Shown here: piece by piece, positions 1-6,828 of the stretch
Numbering within the stretch: position 1 is the first letter of the stretch
Layout: each line of letters opens with the position of its first letter
Source: Chloroflexota bacterium
Lineage (GTDB): Bacteria; Chloroflexota; Dehalococcoidia; SHYB01; JACPQI01
Direction: 5' to 3'
NCBI GenBank assembly: GCA_016190545.1
Contig: JACPQI010000175.1
Coordinates: 1-7,989, forward strand
Length of the DNA: 7,989 nt
Program-made: the position numbers and the translations under genes
Notes under the pieces: model-generated
The model's input: the letters and a program-made list of their open reading frames with translations, nothing else
Databases searched by the model: none
Told to the model about the DNA's origin: nothing

Positions 1-792
1 CTTCTGCGGGTTCTCGTTACTGTTCGTGCCTATCCCGAACCCTCTCGCTCAGTAATAGAGAGCTCCTGTACGGCTGGAATAACAGTTGACCAGAAGTGGA
101 TTCGCCTCTTTCCCTTGAACTCGCGTTCACTGGCTGACAGTCAGAAGTTTCACAAATACGATTGGATCGAGGTTAACGCCGCCAAATCACATGACCCGAG
201 ACCAGAGAGTTACATGCCCGACCCCGACTCCATGAAAGTCGTTGGGAAAGCAAAAGGCTGGGAGGAGAGAAGAAAGCTCATTCTCCCACTGGTTGCCCAA
301 TCTATCGAAGAACTACGGGAGCGGCAGGTCAAGACTGGGCAATCTTTAGGGGTTATCAAACCCAAAAGTATCTTACGACTGGTGATAGAATCGTCTGATG
401 ATGATGAATGGAGGGAAGAACAGCGAGCCAAATTAGCTCAACTCCCCCTCCCCACGTTCGTCGCGAAACAGCCCTCTCCTTTACAGAAGATACCCCACAA
501 GTTTTCGTACGAATTCCTATGTGACGACAAGAAGTGTGAACGGGCACACAAGATGATGGTTGTTGATTGGGAAATCCACGAGTCTTGGAGAAAATGGTCA
601 AAAACTTATGGAGTAGGGTGGGAGCAGAAGTTACGTCAGAGGTACGAGAACGAGATGATTTCCAAGAACGATACGTATTTCTACGTCGGCACGATGTTCC
701 GGCACCCGAGCAACTGGATCATTATTGGGCTGTTCTACCCGCCTGCACCAAAACAGACTTTGCAGGGTGCTTTGGCAATAACTGATAACTAA
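1..792 (+). CDS. 5'-truncated conserved hypothetical protein of the TVRAYP/WIRLFP family
   Basis: The reading frame is open from base 1 to the TAA at 790-792 (263 codons), so the gene enters from outside the window. The TTG at 115 is not the start: the 38 codons before it encode TVRAYPEPS (residues 7-15), CTAGI (23-27) and WIRLFP (33-38), which I recognise as the conserved N-terminus of a widespread uncharacterised family. Probably only a few residues are missing. Later landmarks are KYDWIEV (52-58), DPRPESY (65-71), a possible metal site C174-x4-C179-x3-H183 followed by VVDWEI, and a C-terminal WIIIGLFYPP (239-248). There is no signal peptide or membrane segment, so it is probably cytoplasmic. 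The WIRLFP strand recalls OB-fold-like families, but that is a guess. Biochemical function is unknown. GC is clearly lower than in the genes after 1314. Its 3' end overlaps the convergent DUF488 gene by 71 bp, and family members often lie beside DUF488 genes (from memory, unverified). Confidence 0.85.
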   Translation, partial: LLRVLVTVRAYPEPSRSVIESSCTAGITVDQKWIRLFPLNSRSLADSQKFHKYDWIEVNAAKSHDPRPESYMPDPDSMKVVGKAKGWEERRKLILPLVAQSIEELRERQVKTGQSLGVIKPKSILRLVIESSDDDEWREEQRAKLAQLPLPTFVAKQPSPLQKIPHKFSYEFLCDDKKCERAHKMMVVDWEIHESWRKWSKTYGVGWEQKLRQRYENEMISKNDTYFYVGTMFRHPSNWIIIGLFYPPAPKQTLQGALAITDN

Positions 793-1237
793 GATAGGAC
801 AAATGCTCAAAGCCAAGCTCGTTTCCATTTGCTTTCATTATGAGCGCTGTACATAACGCGCTTCTGTGGCACTGAGTGAATCTATCCTCAAAGCACATAA
901 TCGCAGAGGAATTTTCTTGCAAAAGCTCTACGGCGCGCGTGAGTACCGCTGTTTTGCCCCGTAGGTGTTCTCGGTAGCTCTTGAAAAACGTCTTGTAATC
1001 ACCACTATCCTGGAGATTTTTACGCGTTGTGGGCAGGGAACCTAATTCCCCACAATGAATATAATCGATTCCGCTTTCCTGAAGTTTGGCAGTTAAATGT
1101 GACCTGCTGAAACCGGGCTTGTGACTGAAGGGGTTGTATCGGACATCAATGAGTTGCCTGATCTCGTGTGCCTTCAGCAAGACGAGAAACTCGTCGAGCG
1201 TGAATTTCTCGTAACCTATGGTGTAGGATTTGATCAT
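722..1237 (-). CDS. DUF488 family protein
   Basis: The 171-residue product carries the DUF488 hallmarks: TIGYE near the N-terminus (6-10), IDVRYNPFS (30-38, with D31 and R33), GFSRSHL, a Y-x-H-x-G-E-LGS segment (59-67), and the signature C115-F-E117-x5-C123-H124-R125. In the family the Cys-Glu and Cys-His-Arg cluster is taken to be the active or metal-binding site, but no reaction is established. No signal peptide is visible, so it should be cytosolic. I chose ATG at 1237 over the GTG at 1255: homology begins just after it, and the best promoter candidate would start transcription near 1250, inside the longer form. Neither start has a clear ribosome binding site. The last 23 codons run into the 3' end of the convergent upstream gene, and this tail (after about residue 148) shows no family motif. 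Base composition is AT-richer than the housekeeping genes, suggesting accessory DNA. Confidence 0.88.
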   Translation of the reverse strand: MIKSYTIGYEKFTLDEFLVLLKAHEIRQLIDVRYNPFSHKPGFSRSHLTAKLQESGIDYIHCGELGSLPTTRKNLQDSGDYKTFFKSYREHLRGKTAVLTRAVELLQENSSAIMCFEDRFTQCHRSALCTALIMKANGNELGFEHLSYLSYQLLPKHPAKSVLVQAGRTAQ

Positions 1238-1255
1238 CTTTGTTCTACAAGTCAC

Positions 1256-2006: not shown

Positions 2007-3101
2007 ATGTCGCTACAAAAACTTCTCGACAAAGTGAAGCTGCTGGAGAAGCGGTACGACGAGCTGGCTGAGCTTATGGCCCAGCCGGAGGTCGCTACCG
2101 ATTCAGCGCGACTGCAAGCCCTCGGCAAGGAGCGGGCCTCCCTGGAGGACGCCGTATCCCTCCACCGGCGCTACCAGCAGGTGGCCAGAGGACTGGCTGA
2201 CGCCCAGGCCTTGGTCCAGGAGAGCGGCGAGGCGGAGCTTGTCGAGTTGGCCAAGCAAGAGGTCGCCGCCTTGCAGCGGCAGAAAGAAGAATTAGAGCAA
2301 GCGCTGACCGTCGCACTGTTGCCCAAGAACCCTAACGATGAACGCGACGTGATCATGGAGATCCGCGCGGGTACCGGCGGCGAGGAGGCCGGCCTTTTTG
2401 CCGCCGACCTCTTCCGCATGTACTCTCGCTATGCCCAGAAGCAGGGCTGGAAGGTCGAGGTCATCGACTGGAACGAGACCGGCGTCAAGGGCGTAAAAGA
2501 GGGCATCTTTGAAGTGAAGGGGCGCGGCGCTTACAGCCGCCTCAAGCATGAGAGCGGCGTCCACCGCGTCCAGCGGGTGCCGGTCACGGAGGCCAGCGGC
2601 CGCATCCACACCTCCACCGCAACGGTGGCTGTGCTGCCGGAGGCGGAAGAGGTGGACGTGGACGTCAACCCCAACGACCTCCGTATTGATATCTTCCATG
2701 CCGGCGGCCATGGTGGCCAGAACGTGCAGAAGGTGGCCACCGCCGTGCGCATTATCCATGTGCCCACCGGTATTACGGCCGTGTGCCAAGACGAGCGCTC
2801 CCAGCTCAAGAACAAGATGAAGGCCATGTCCGTGCTACGGGCCCGGCTCTACGAAATCGAGCGGCGCAAACAAGAGCAGGAGATCGCCGCCACCCGCAAG
2901 GCCCAGGTCGGCACGGCGGAGCGCTCTGAGAAAATCCGCACCTACAACTTCCCCCAGGACCGGGTGACGGACCATCGCGTCAACCTCAGCGTCCACAACC
3001 TGCCCGGCGTCCTGGAAGGCGACCTCGACAAGCTCATCGACGCCCTCCGCGACGACGAGCAGGCCAAGCGCATCGCCGCCCTGGCGGAGAGCGCCGTGTG
3101 A
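2007..3101 (+). CDS. prfA: Peptide chain release factor 1 (RF1)
   Basis: RF1 recognises UAA and UAG in the ribosomal A site and triggers hydrolysis of peptidyl-tRNA. The 364 residues are the normal family length. The N-terminal part (1-105) is the helical, coiled-coil-like domain. The codon-recognition motif is P192-V-T194, fitting the RF1 PxT pattern and not the SPF of RF2. The catalytic GGQ is at 236-238, in the context HGGQNVQKVATAVRI, followed by PTGITAVCQDERSQ (253-266). The C-terminal SEKIRTYNFPQDRVTDHR (307-324) is a strong family signature. ATG at 2007 is the first start after an in-frame TGA at 1989-1991. Its ribosome binding site is weak: GAAGG at 1990-1994 is 12 nt away. The stop overlaps the prmC start (GTGA), so the factor and its methylating enzyme are probably translated together. 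The HGGQ/NVQK version of the loop differs from the AGGQHVNKTDSAV form of many bacteria and is probably lineage-specific. Confidence 0.97.
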   Translation: MSLQKLLDKVKLLEKRYDELAELMAQPEVATDSARLQALGKERASLEDAVSLHRRYQQVARGLADAQALVQESGEAELVELAKQEVAALQRQKEELEQALTVALLPKNPNDERDVIMEIRAGTGGEEAGLFAADLFRMYSRYAQKQGWKVEVIDWNETGVKGVKEGIFEVKGRGAYSRLKHESGVHRVQRVPVTEASGRIHTSTATVAVLPEAEEVDVDVNPNDLRIDIFHAGGHGGQNVQKVATAVRIIHVPTGITAVCQDERSQLKNKMKAMSVLRARLYEIERRKQEQEIAATRKAQVGTAERSEKIRTYNFPQDRVTDHRVNLSVHNLPGVLEGDLDKLIDALRDDEQAKRIAALAESAV

Positions 3102-4087
3102 CCATCGGCGAATGGGTGGAGCGGGGGGCGGAGGAGCTGGCCAGAGCGGGCATCGCCGACGCGCGCCTGGAAGCGCAACTCCTTTTTTGTCACGTCTTCG
3201 GTGTGGACCGCGCCGGCCTGCTCACGCGCCTGGCTGACGAGCCCACGCAAGAGCAACGAAGGGCCTTCGGCGCCCTCCTCATGCGCCGCCACCGCCGCGA
3301 GCCTCTGGCCTACATCACCGGCAGCGCGCCCTTCTTCGGCCTGGACCTAGCCGTGGACCGGCGCGTCCTCGTCCCCAGGCCCGAAACCGAAGTGATGGTG
3401 GAGAAGATTCTTCAGCATGTGCAGGCCCGTTTTGTGAAGCTGTCTCGAAGTCCCTCACCCTCTCGGTCCCCCTCTCCTGCGGAGAGGGGGATGAAGAAAG
3501 AAGCTGGGGGTGTCCCCCAGTCCCCCGTCAGAGAGGGTACCCCCCCTCTGATCTCCCCCAAAGACAAGTTTCGGGATGAATTCATCACTATTACGGACGT
3601 CGGAACGGGGTCGGGGGCCATAGCGGTGGCCCTGGCGGTAAACCTGCCACAGGCCACCGTCTACGCAACCGATTGCTCGCCCGACGCCCTCGCCGTTGCC
3701 GAGGCGAACTGCAAGCGCCATGGCGTGGCCGAGCGGGTGCGCCTGCTCCACTGCGACCTGCTTGCGCCGTTGCCGGGGCCGGTGGACATCGTCGCCGCCA
3801 ACCTGCCCTATATCCCCACGGAGGAGCTTGCGCGCCTCCAGCCCGAAATCGCCTGGTATGAGCCGCGCGAGGCCCTGGACGGCGGACGGGACGGGCTTGA
3901 TGCCTTCCGCGCCCTGCTGTCGCAGGCCCCGGCGAAGCTCAAGCCGGGCGGCGCGCTCTTCCTGGAGATCGGGCATGGGCAGGCACAGGCCGTCTGCCAA
4001 CTGGTCGCACAGCGCCTGCCATCCGCACGGGTAGCTGTGACCAACGACCTAGCGGGCATCCCACGGGTCGTGGCCGCCTTCACCTAG
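3098..4087 (+). CDS. prmC: Release factor glutamine methyltransferase PrmC (HemK) with an inserted linker
   Basis: PrmC uses S-adenosylmethionine to N5-methylate the glutamine of the release factor GGQ motif, which speeds termination. The N-terminal helical factor-binding domain spans about residues 1-85, followed by VLVPRPETE (90-98). The Rossmann methyltransferase domain starts with the SAM-binding DVGTGSGAI (167-175). The substrate-binding motif is NLPY (235-238) where most PrmC proteins have NPPY; the amide-binding Asn and the PY pair are kept. The protein has 329 residues against about 280 usual. The excess is a Ser/Pro/Gly/Lys-rich stretch at roughly residues 116-158, encoded by a palindromic DNA element inserted in frame between the two domains. 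The GTG start overlaps the prfA stop (GTGA), with GGAG at 3086-3089, 8 nt upstream, showing tight translational coupling with its substrate gene. Both flanking domains look intact, so I expect an active enzyme. Confidence 0.95.
   Translation: MTIGEWVERGAEELARAGIADARLEAQLLFCHVFGVDRAGLLTRLADEPTQEQRRAFGALLMRRHRREPLAYITGSAPFFGLDLAVDRRVLVPRPETEVMVEKILQHVQARFVKLSRSPSPSRSPSPAERGMKKEAGGVPQSPVREGTPPLISPKDKFRDEFITITDVGTGSGAIAVALAVNLPQATVYATDCSPDALAVAEANCKRHGVAERVRLLHCDLLAPLPGPVDIVAANLPYIPTEELARLQPEIAWYEPREALDGGRDGLDAFRALLSQAPAKLKPGGALFLEIGHGQAQAVCQLVAQRLPSARVAVTNDLAGIPRVVAAFT
3451..3556. repeat. Palindromic element inserted in frame within prmC
   Basis: A G/C-rich element with nested inverted repeats. 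Hairpin A is a perfect 11-bp stem with a 3-nt loop (3467-3477 with 3481-3491). Hairpin B is a 7-bp stem with a TGT loop (3504-3510 with 3514-3520). Hairpin C pairs 3528-3533 with 3546-3551 and continues after one mismatch for 3 bp. An alternative outer stem, ACCCTCTC (3457-3464) with GAGAGGGT (3531-3538), would enclose A and B in a multi-branched structure. The element keeps the reading frame and encodes SRSPSPSRSPSPAERG and following residues, which have no counterpart in normal PrmC. This resembles mobile palindromic or MITE-like repeats; I associate similar CTGGGGG-TGT-CCCCCAG modules with Chloroflexota genomes (memory, unverified). Exact ends are uncertain by about 10 bp and no target duplication is obvious. 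Confidence 0.75.
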
Positions 4088-5523: not shown

Positions 5524-6828
5524 GTGTTGCTACCGCCGCTGGGTAGGGCGATGCCGGTCGCCGTCGTACTCGTTGTGGGCTTGGTTGCCGCGCTCCCGCA
5601 GCCGACCGCTGCTCAAAGCCAGGAGCTGCTGTCCAACGGCGGCTTTGAAGCGGGTAACGGCGACACACTCGACGTGTGGCGCAGTGTGCCGCCGCAGGCC
5701 ACGCTGAAGCGGGTGTCCGCGCCCGTCCAGTCCGGCTCCTTCGCCGCCGAGCTCAGCAGCAGTGGCGCTCAAGAAGCCCTGTTGTTCCAGAATGCTCCCG
5801 CCAGCCCCGGCCTGAGCGTGCGACTCTCCGGTTACGTGCGCAAGGACACGCCGGCCGCCGAAAGCGTCTTCTTCCGGCTGCGCTGGTTCAGGGCTGACGG
5901 TGAGATACCCGAAACTTCCGAGTCGTCGGCCAGGGTGACGGCGGACGGCCCCGGCTTCATCCTTCTCACGCTGGGCGCCGTTGCGCCCGCCACCACGGTC
6001 AGGGTTCAGGTACAAGGCGTCCTCGTTCGGGCGGGCATTGCGCCGGCCACCGTTCACTTCGACGCCGTGAGCCTCACCGTCACTGCGGCAGCGCCCGACG
6101 AACCCTATGATTACAATCCCTCGCCAACACCCGCAGCGACCCCGTTGCCGACTCCAACTCGTACCCCAACGCCGACTCGCACACCCACACCCACGCGCAC
6201 GCCGACGCCCACGAGGACTCCCACAGCCACACCTACATCAACGTCTACGCCAACACAGACCCCCACACCATCGCCCACGCCCACTGCTACGCCTTCGCCG
6301 ACAGCGTCGGCAACCCCCACGCCAACGCCAAGCCCAACGCCTACCCCCACGGCAACAGCAACGCCAACCGTCACGCCAATCGTGTTGCCGCCGCAGCCCG
6401 CCACGACACCCACCCCGTTGCCCGCTCCAACACCAACGCCAACAAGCGCTCTGCCTACTCCGCCTGCTGCCACGCCACCGCCGGGCCGGTCCCTGTCAAA
6501 CTCCTCCCGGACGCTCAACGAGCGGGACACCGGCGGCGAGGGCACCCCGGTCCTGTTGCCGGAGAAGCCGGTCAGCCCCCTTTTGACTGGGCCGGGTAGT
6601 CAAGCCACACCCAGCGGCCCGTCAGTGTGGCCGGGCCAGGCCGCATCCACCCAACCCACTACGCAAGCTGTTGCGCCCACTCGCGCGCCCTCAGCGAAGT
6701 CGGCGCAGGTCAATACGTCCGAGCGATTGAGCTTCCTCTGGGTGTTCCTGGCGGGCATGGGCGCCGCCCTGGGCGTGGTCACTCTGGCAGGCGCGGCATT
6801 CTATCTTATCGCCAGGCACAGGCGATGA
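5524..6828 (+). CDS. Exported, C-terminally anchored Thr/Pro-stalk protein with carbohydrate-binding-like N-domain
   Basis: A 434-residue protein in four parts. Residues 1-31 form a signal peptide (hydrophobic core [14 protein letters not shown], probable cleavage after TAA or TAAQ). Residues about 34-186 look like a beta-sandwich of the carbohydrate-binding CBM4/9 type: it opens with ELLSNGGFE, contains W52, SGSFAAEL and LSGYVRKD, and closes with VHFDAVSLT; this is a resemblance, not proof of sugar binding. Residues 199-320 are a Thr/Pro stalk with RTPTPT repeats, followed by a disordered Ser/Pro/Gly linker. Residues 403-430 form a transmembrane helix ending in RHRR, placing the rest outside the cell. 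No LPxTG motif is present. The GTG start at 5524 has AGGAG 4 nt upstream; the adjacent TTG at 5527 (7-nt spacing) is an alternative. Stalks of this kind are frequent in Chloroflexota surface proteins. It probably displays its N-domain at the cell surface; the ligand is unknown. cmk follows after 34 nt. Confidence 0.85.
6118..6483 (+). repeat. Thr/Pro-rich low-complexity repeat within the stalk protein gene
   Basis: About 122 codons are dominated by Thr and Pro with some Ala, Ser and Arg. Four consecutive 18-bp units at 6154-6225 encode PTRTPT three times and then PTRTPT again before the pattern drifts. The units are identical in protein but all differ in DNA: the Arg codons are cgt, cgc, cgc and agg, and the Thr codons vary freely. 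This is a coding repeat, not a mobile element. The reverse strand gives a Gly-Val shadow frame only. Confidence 0.9.

Follow-up and report, generated by a model that had tools for sequence, protein, structure and literature searches.

We found that the prmC gene of an uncultured Chloroflexota bacterium carries, at 3451-3558, what we take with a probability of about 0.88 to be one member of a dispersed repeat family of ~107 bp with three hairpins, presumably non-autonomous, which inserted just before motif I of the PrmC methyltransferase domain. Positions are those of the window, i.e., the whole stretch of 7,989 nucleotides that was analyzed.

The prfA-prmC locus and the enlarged PrmC linker

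The gene belongs to a prfA-prmC pair on the plus strand. prfA (2007-3101; TIGR00019, 506.5 bits) encodes peptide chain release factor 1 (RF1), the substrate of PrmC, and its stop codon is overlapped by the GTG start of prmC, four bases being common to both genes. prmC (3098-4087; TIGR03534, 252.6 bits against a cut-off of 199.1; PrmC_N, PF17827) encodes a release factor N5-glutamine methyltransferase of 329 residues. As the preliminary description had it, ~105 bp of palindromic DNA are read through as codons without a stop: the frame 3098-4087 is stop-free across all hairpins. According to Pfam, the insert is flanked by PrmC_N and the methyltransferase domain, and the conserved family residues of the enzyme are retained on either side of it.

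The linker that holds the insert lies between PRPET and DVGTGSG (3389-3595, plus strand). It has 69 residues, while the 120 best homologues have a median of 22, in agreement with the excess of about 45 residues claimed earlier. The linker is 18 to 25 residues long in 93 of these homologues and reaches at least 30 in 20. Among 121 PrmCs, including that of the window, we counted 22 insertions that exceed the consensus by 10 residues or more; 19 of them fell into this linker, and the other three lay elsewhere, one apiece. These sets were chosen because they were similar to the window or had long spans, and one genome list favors short linkers, so that the linker rates are not population estimates.

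The block-mean pLDDT of the AlphaFold2 model was 51 to 63 for residues 121-160 and 78 for residues 111-120, all other blocks reaching 94 to 98. The fold of the model best matched 2b3t (E. coli PrmC with RF1), with a further match to 1nv8, and between the matched blocks the window has 53 residues versus 4 in T. maritima HemK (1NV8). The low-confidence modelling of the linker is as expected for what would be a disordered loop. In the methyltransferase fold, the loop preceding the first strand is located away from the cofactor pocket. We infer that PrmC with the insert still works, the effect of the insert on the protein probably being neutral.

The rest of the window has features of its own. Positions 1-1260 have a G+C content of 47 to 50%, versus 61 to 69% from ~1200 onward; this low-G+C part, perhaps a recently gained segment, contains an unassigned open frame at 115-792 and a DUF488 gene (722-1255, minus strand; Pfam). 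The protein encoded at 5524-6828 is predicted to be of the surface type, with a long stalk of Pro/Thr repeats and a hydrophobic segment at its C terminus; it had no Pfam match and a weak NCBIfam match (NTTRR-F1) below the cut-off.

Three consecutive hairpins in the insert

The extent of the element was first defined from matches of the raw window sequence in other genomes. According to a covariance model, 3451-3558 (plus strand) spans the whole of the dispersed three-hairpin repeat, which is translated in frame into residues ~118-154. By pairing and covariation, it contains, all on the plus strand, hairpin 1 (3467-3491), with a perfect 11-bp stem (3467-3477/3481-3491) and a 3-nt loop; hairpin 2 (3504-3520), with a perfect 7-bp stem (3504-3510/3514-3520) and a 3-nt loop; and hairpin 3 (3528-3551), with 10 stem positions of which one is mismatched (3528-3537/3542-3551; 90% complementary). 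Both perfect stems, their 3-nt loops and the imperfect third hairpin had been correctly recognized in the preliminary description; the hairpins are consecutive, not nested as stated there.

RNA folding of 3440-3570 gave -60.7 kcal/mol, versus -45.1 ± 4.0 kcal/mol in 200 dinucleotide shuffles (z, -3.94), and none of the 200 shuffles reached so low an energy. On the minus strand, hairpin 2 (3504-3520) followed by CTTCTTTCTT forms a terminator-like site, and we counted one such site on this strand versus 0.2 ± 0.4 in shuffles. The purine-rich spacer next to hairpin 2 recurs among the copies of the repeat.

The repeat is dispersed in related genomes

In the preliminary description, the insert was considered a mobile palindromic repeat. 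Searching related genomes for further copies revealed a dispersed multi-copy repeat, in related genomes only; its dispersal was thus borne out, whereas mobility is read from that dispersal and a transposition partner was not found. The related genomes were found via an RF1 scan, and copies were counted in these genomes only. Repeat matches (E ≤ 1e-3) were present in at least 50 of 294 sampled genomes, apparently Dehalococcoidia, which were drawn from a larger group and searched with at most two candidates scored per genome. G002 probably belongs to the Dehalococcoidia, judging from the list drawn for its class, which includes G007, G014 and G017 (L007, L020 and L056), and these are so recorded. 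A deeper search of 10 of the 50 matching genomes, with up to 40 candidates scored per genome and every candidate scored in five of them, yielded 59, 33, 26, 19, 14, 8, 8, 7, 4 and 3 matches; these figures are matches and not copy numbers, some representing both strands of a palindrome or parts of the element.

Within 60 regions fetched from the three richest genomes (G055, G045 and G127), which had been picked for holding matches, nhmmer reported 75 matches in 57 regions. Near full-length copies in related genomes were 70 to 83% identical and had common ends; one of them (G045:C37:32164-32269) showed 82% identity to the window element over positions 1-108. The ends were common to all aligned copies save one that was cut at a contig end. 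The covariance model found a single copy in the window itself.

Two arrangements of the repeat were observed in passing. Three matches stand in tandem in L108:71-538 (G296), with a spacing of ~180 bp. In G046, a match to the whole model (L213:1292-1407, 47.5 bits) starts ~43 bp beyond the prmC stop; the repeat is therefore also located just outside prmC.

No match to the element was detected in plasmid and phage collections (E ≤ 0.01), and no Rfam family reached its gathering score anywhere in the window. The peptide encoded by the insert, used as a query among 361 candidates limited to proteins of similar length, had no relative at E ≤ 1.

The hairpins covary and the sense strand is poor in stop codons

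A length rule was passed by 35 of the 75 nhmmer matches; the three weakest were dropped, and the remaining 32 were aligned with the window copy, giving 33 sequences. The consensus consists of CCTCACCCCCT, hairpin 1, the purine-rich spacer, hairpin 2, hairpin 3 and CTCCCC, in this order, the loop of hairpin 2 being mostly ACA and sometimes TGT. Over the 33 sequences, 96.7% of the pair cells form a pair. Two-sided, compensatory changes occurred in 12 of the 21 base pairs, versus 2.3 ± 1.2 in shuffles and 1 to 4 with the partner slid, and none of 500 shuffles reached 12. Thus, the three hairpins have been kept through compensatory changes. A covariance model built from these 33 sequences, the window among them, matched 3451-3558 over positions 1-108 of 108 with 101.2 bits. 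It also gave 83 matches (E ≤ 0.01) in 47 other loci, which had been picked for the element, the count including both strands of palindromes, overlapping loci and training sequences. Weak matches to the model were seen in L231 (24.0 bits), L003 (19.7 bits) and L230 (18.3 bits).

It had further been suggested that the element may be tuned to keep one particular frame free of stops. Of the 33 copies, 26, 24 and 27 were open in the three sense frames, respectively, versus ~16 in shuffles, and 16, 19 and 16 in the antisense frames, which is the chance level; summed over six frames, 128 were open versus 98 ± 6, and 0 of 200 shuffles were as high. Copy lengths are distributed 10/13/10 over the three remainders, with no preference for multiples of three. 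Since the sense frames hardly differ in openness and the lengths are indifferent to three, tuning to a single frame is not supported: the repeat is readable whichever sense frame is used.

In other genomes, 44 of the 75 nhmmer matches lie within some stop-to-stop frame with at least 30 codons on either side, which counts for little because the DNA is GC-rich. We inspected 24 of these frames and scanned 10 with Pfam. Among the 10, none had a domain interrupted by a copy of the repeat, and the four frames with domains all had the copy preceding the domain, indicating that it is probably upstream of the start. In this partial check, the only clear in-gene copy of the repeat was that in prmC.

The repeat was most likely gained on the branch of the window

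A tree was calculated from 184 PrmC cores, comprising 67 genome loci, the window and 116 of the 120 database hits (those failing a motif filter were left out), with most of the linker excluded. The PrmC of the window groups with P0056, P0111, P0078, P0105 and P0009 (support, 0.82), whose linkers have 20 to 23 residues; the next wider clade includes P0018, with a linker of 40 residues. PrmCs lacking the insert are thus found among the relatives, and given the short linkers of these neighbors, the repeat was most likely gained on the branch of the window. From these sequences, the repeat in this prmC most likely was inserted and is not ancestral. No sister strain offers a clean empty site, as there is no close relative: the best-scoring PrmC homologue is just 50% identical, and the best match of the RF1 of the window is 62% identical among the matches listed in the RF1 scan of genomes. 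Repeat-rich genomes, G045, G036, G049 and G057 among others, have ordinary prmC linkers of 20 to 25 residues; the repeat is therefore usually not in prmC.

Linkers of at least 30 residues were present in 32 of the 184 tips and correspond to 18 Fitch parsimony changes, a number that pools gains, losses and every cause, with P0061 and L225 probably representing one record counted twice. Such recurrence of long linkers in the tree would fit a selected function of the insert in prmC, for example through mRNA hairpins that slow the ribosome between the two domains, an antisense terminator or a binding peptide, and so would the strong hairpins and the terminator-like site that hairpin 2 forms with CTTCTTTCTT on the minus strand. 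However, the insert sequences vary widely between lineages, the linker is modelled without structure, and most homologues manage with 18 to 25 residues. We therefore regard a selected function as quite improbable and favor a dispersed repeat inserted into the linker.

Other repeats and other long linkers at the same site

Long linkers of palindromic look were observed in three further PrmCs, those of G041 (L226), G091 (L227) and G062 (L225). Searched against their own genomes, the insert DNAs gave 19 matches in G041, at least 34 in G091 (40 of 77 candidates scored) and at least 49 in G062 (40 of 619 scored), the prmC insert itself being counted and some matches representing both strands or parts. 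The G041 insert had no match in G091 and one in G062, and the G062 insert had none in G041 and one in G091. The G091 insert matched twice in G041 and 42 times in G062, mostly through one palindrome of ~37 bp, indicating that these genomes have a module in common. With the G041 peptide as a query against proteins of similar length, no other protein was recovered: the one hit, which bears the name PrmC, comes from a Dehalococcoidia bacterium and shows 100% identity, is evidently the PrmC of G041 itself.

With the covariance model of the window repeat, the G041 insert scored 27.7 bits, on the strand that is antisense to the gene, and the G091 insert no more than 20.2 bits; matches of the window type are also present elsewhere in both genomes. 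The antisense match suggests that the G041 insert may be a remote relative of the window repeat in reverse orientation. We claim for the PrmC linker a minimum of two clearly distinct types of repeat, and up to four.

Multi-copy inserts were found in three of the six groups tested; the long linkers of the G198/G104/G166/G209/G143 group (which align with one another and drift in the manner of protein sequence), of G013 and of G095 are single-copy, so that multi-copy repeats are not the only way in which the linker grows. The PrmCs of L253, L254, L255, L256 and L229 share an alignable, single-copy linker of 51 residues that drifts like protein and is possibly an old decayed insertion. These single-copy linkers, together with the runs of similar short peptides in P0051, P0120 and P0020, could suggest that the window insert is an ordinary low-complexity linker as well, a Pro/Ser-rich disordered loop that was extended by slippage and merely looks like a repeat. 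Against this stand the near full-length matches of 70 to 83% identity in other genomes, which have their ends and all three covarying hairpins in common. We give this explanation very little credence. Slippage is refuted for the window by the dispersed, covarying copies; for other long linkers, it remains a valid explanation.

Comparison with known elements

Terminal inverted repeats were not found in the repeat, 5 of 16 terminal positions matching. Flanks were long enough in 31 of the 33 aligned copies, and no target duplication was detected in these: the longest word shared by the flanks had a mean length of 3.65, versus 3.55 in re-paired flanks, with 139 of 500 re-pairings as high. A short, hairpin-rich, dispersed repeat lacking both features resembles REPs and BIMEs, which would make it a REP-like element mobilized by a RAYT (Y1) transposase; REPs with a GTAG tag have been reported in Chloroflexi (PMC3733652). 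The Y1_Tnp domain (PF01797) is indeed present in two repeat-bearing genomes, G036 and G057. However, it was not found in 11 of 13 repeat-bearing genomes, including the three richest ones (G055, G045 and G127, all drafts), and it occurs in 3 of 10 genomes without a repeat match; there is therefore no association with the repeat. The absences weigh little, as most assemblies look like fragmented drafts. Moreover, REPs measure 20 to 40 bp and are mostly sorted by a GTAG or CGTC tag (PMC3733652), whereas the window repeat has ~107 bp and CCTCACC at one end. We consider mobilization by RAYT unlikely.

With a length of ~100 bp and a presumably non-autonomous nature, the repeat also resembles MITEs, among them ERIC, RUP and Correia, from which it differs in lacking terminal inverted repeats and target duplication. 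Both ERIC and the Correia form of 107 bp have open frames that are reported to be fused in frame with genes (PMC2229807). We do not assign the repeat to the MITEs or to the REPs. The CIR repeats of Caulobacter and Brucella likewise have no terminal inverted repeat and are given a different structure, with multiple arms, but they contain stops in all six frames and do not occur inside genes (PMC2229807); this comparison is by description only.

The closest parallel in behavior is offered by the Rickettsia palindromic elements (RPEs), to which the insert had been likened from the start. According to PMC10969869 and PMC2229807, RPEs are dispersed palindromic elements of ~105 to 150 bp that are located between genes and often also within them, including as in-frame fusions to conserved proteins. 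The window repeat, too, is palindromic, ~107 bp long, dispersed and present in frame in a conserved protein gene, at a presumably tolerant linker modelled with low confidence. It differs in consisting of three hairpins in a row, in belonging to another phylum, in having prmC as its single clear in-gene location in our partial check and in lacking terminal inverted repeats, which RPEs have (listed as 12 bp in PMC2229807). By analogy, the repeat would behave like an RPE, set apart by the missing terminal inverted repeats, the likeness being one of behavior. Hence, the earlier parallel appears to hold for behavior and not for the terminal inverted repeats. We file the repeat as a new family with a known kind of behavior, set apart from RPEs by description and not by sequence. 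In the literature on palindromic or inverted-repeat elements of Dehalococcoidia and on PrmC insertions in Chloroflexi, we found no report of it.

Discussion

The repeat could have arrived through a transposase acting in trans or through copying of single-stranded hairpin DNA. Its persistence in prmC may be explained by a linker that would tolerate nearly any in-frame sequence and by a sense strand unusually poor in stop codons. The simplest account would combine chance insertion, a stop-poor sequence and a tolerant linker.

We tentatively raise a further possibility, which we hold to be rather doubtful, namely that, throughout the Chloroflexota, dispersed palindromic DNA has repeatedly landed in the linker before motif I, where lineage-specific repeat families would have inserted in frame, several times independently. 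Either hairpin-borne insertion would favor the site, or the prfA-prmC operon would gain from a long disordered loop or hairpin. If this were true, PrmC would be a natural recorder of the small repeats active in a lineage.

Protein-coding palindromic repeats of Wolbachia were reportedly described by Ogata in 2005. According to PMC10969869 and PMC2229807, such repeats are known chiefly from Rickettsia and also from Wolbachia, enterobacteria and Neisseria. The same phenomenon now appears in uncultured, presumably free-living Chloroflexota, in the gene of an enzyme that methylates release factors, and one PrmC linker holds different repeats in different lineages. Since a single loop in many lineages carries inserts of differing age, insertion, decay and drift become directly comparable. 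This makes an old question testable, namely whether small repeats serve as useful protein segments or are merely tolerated.
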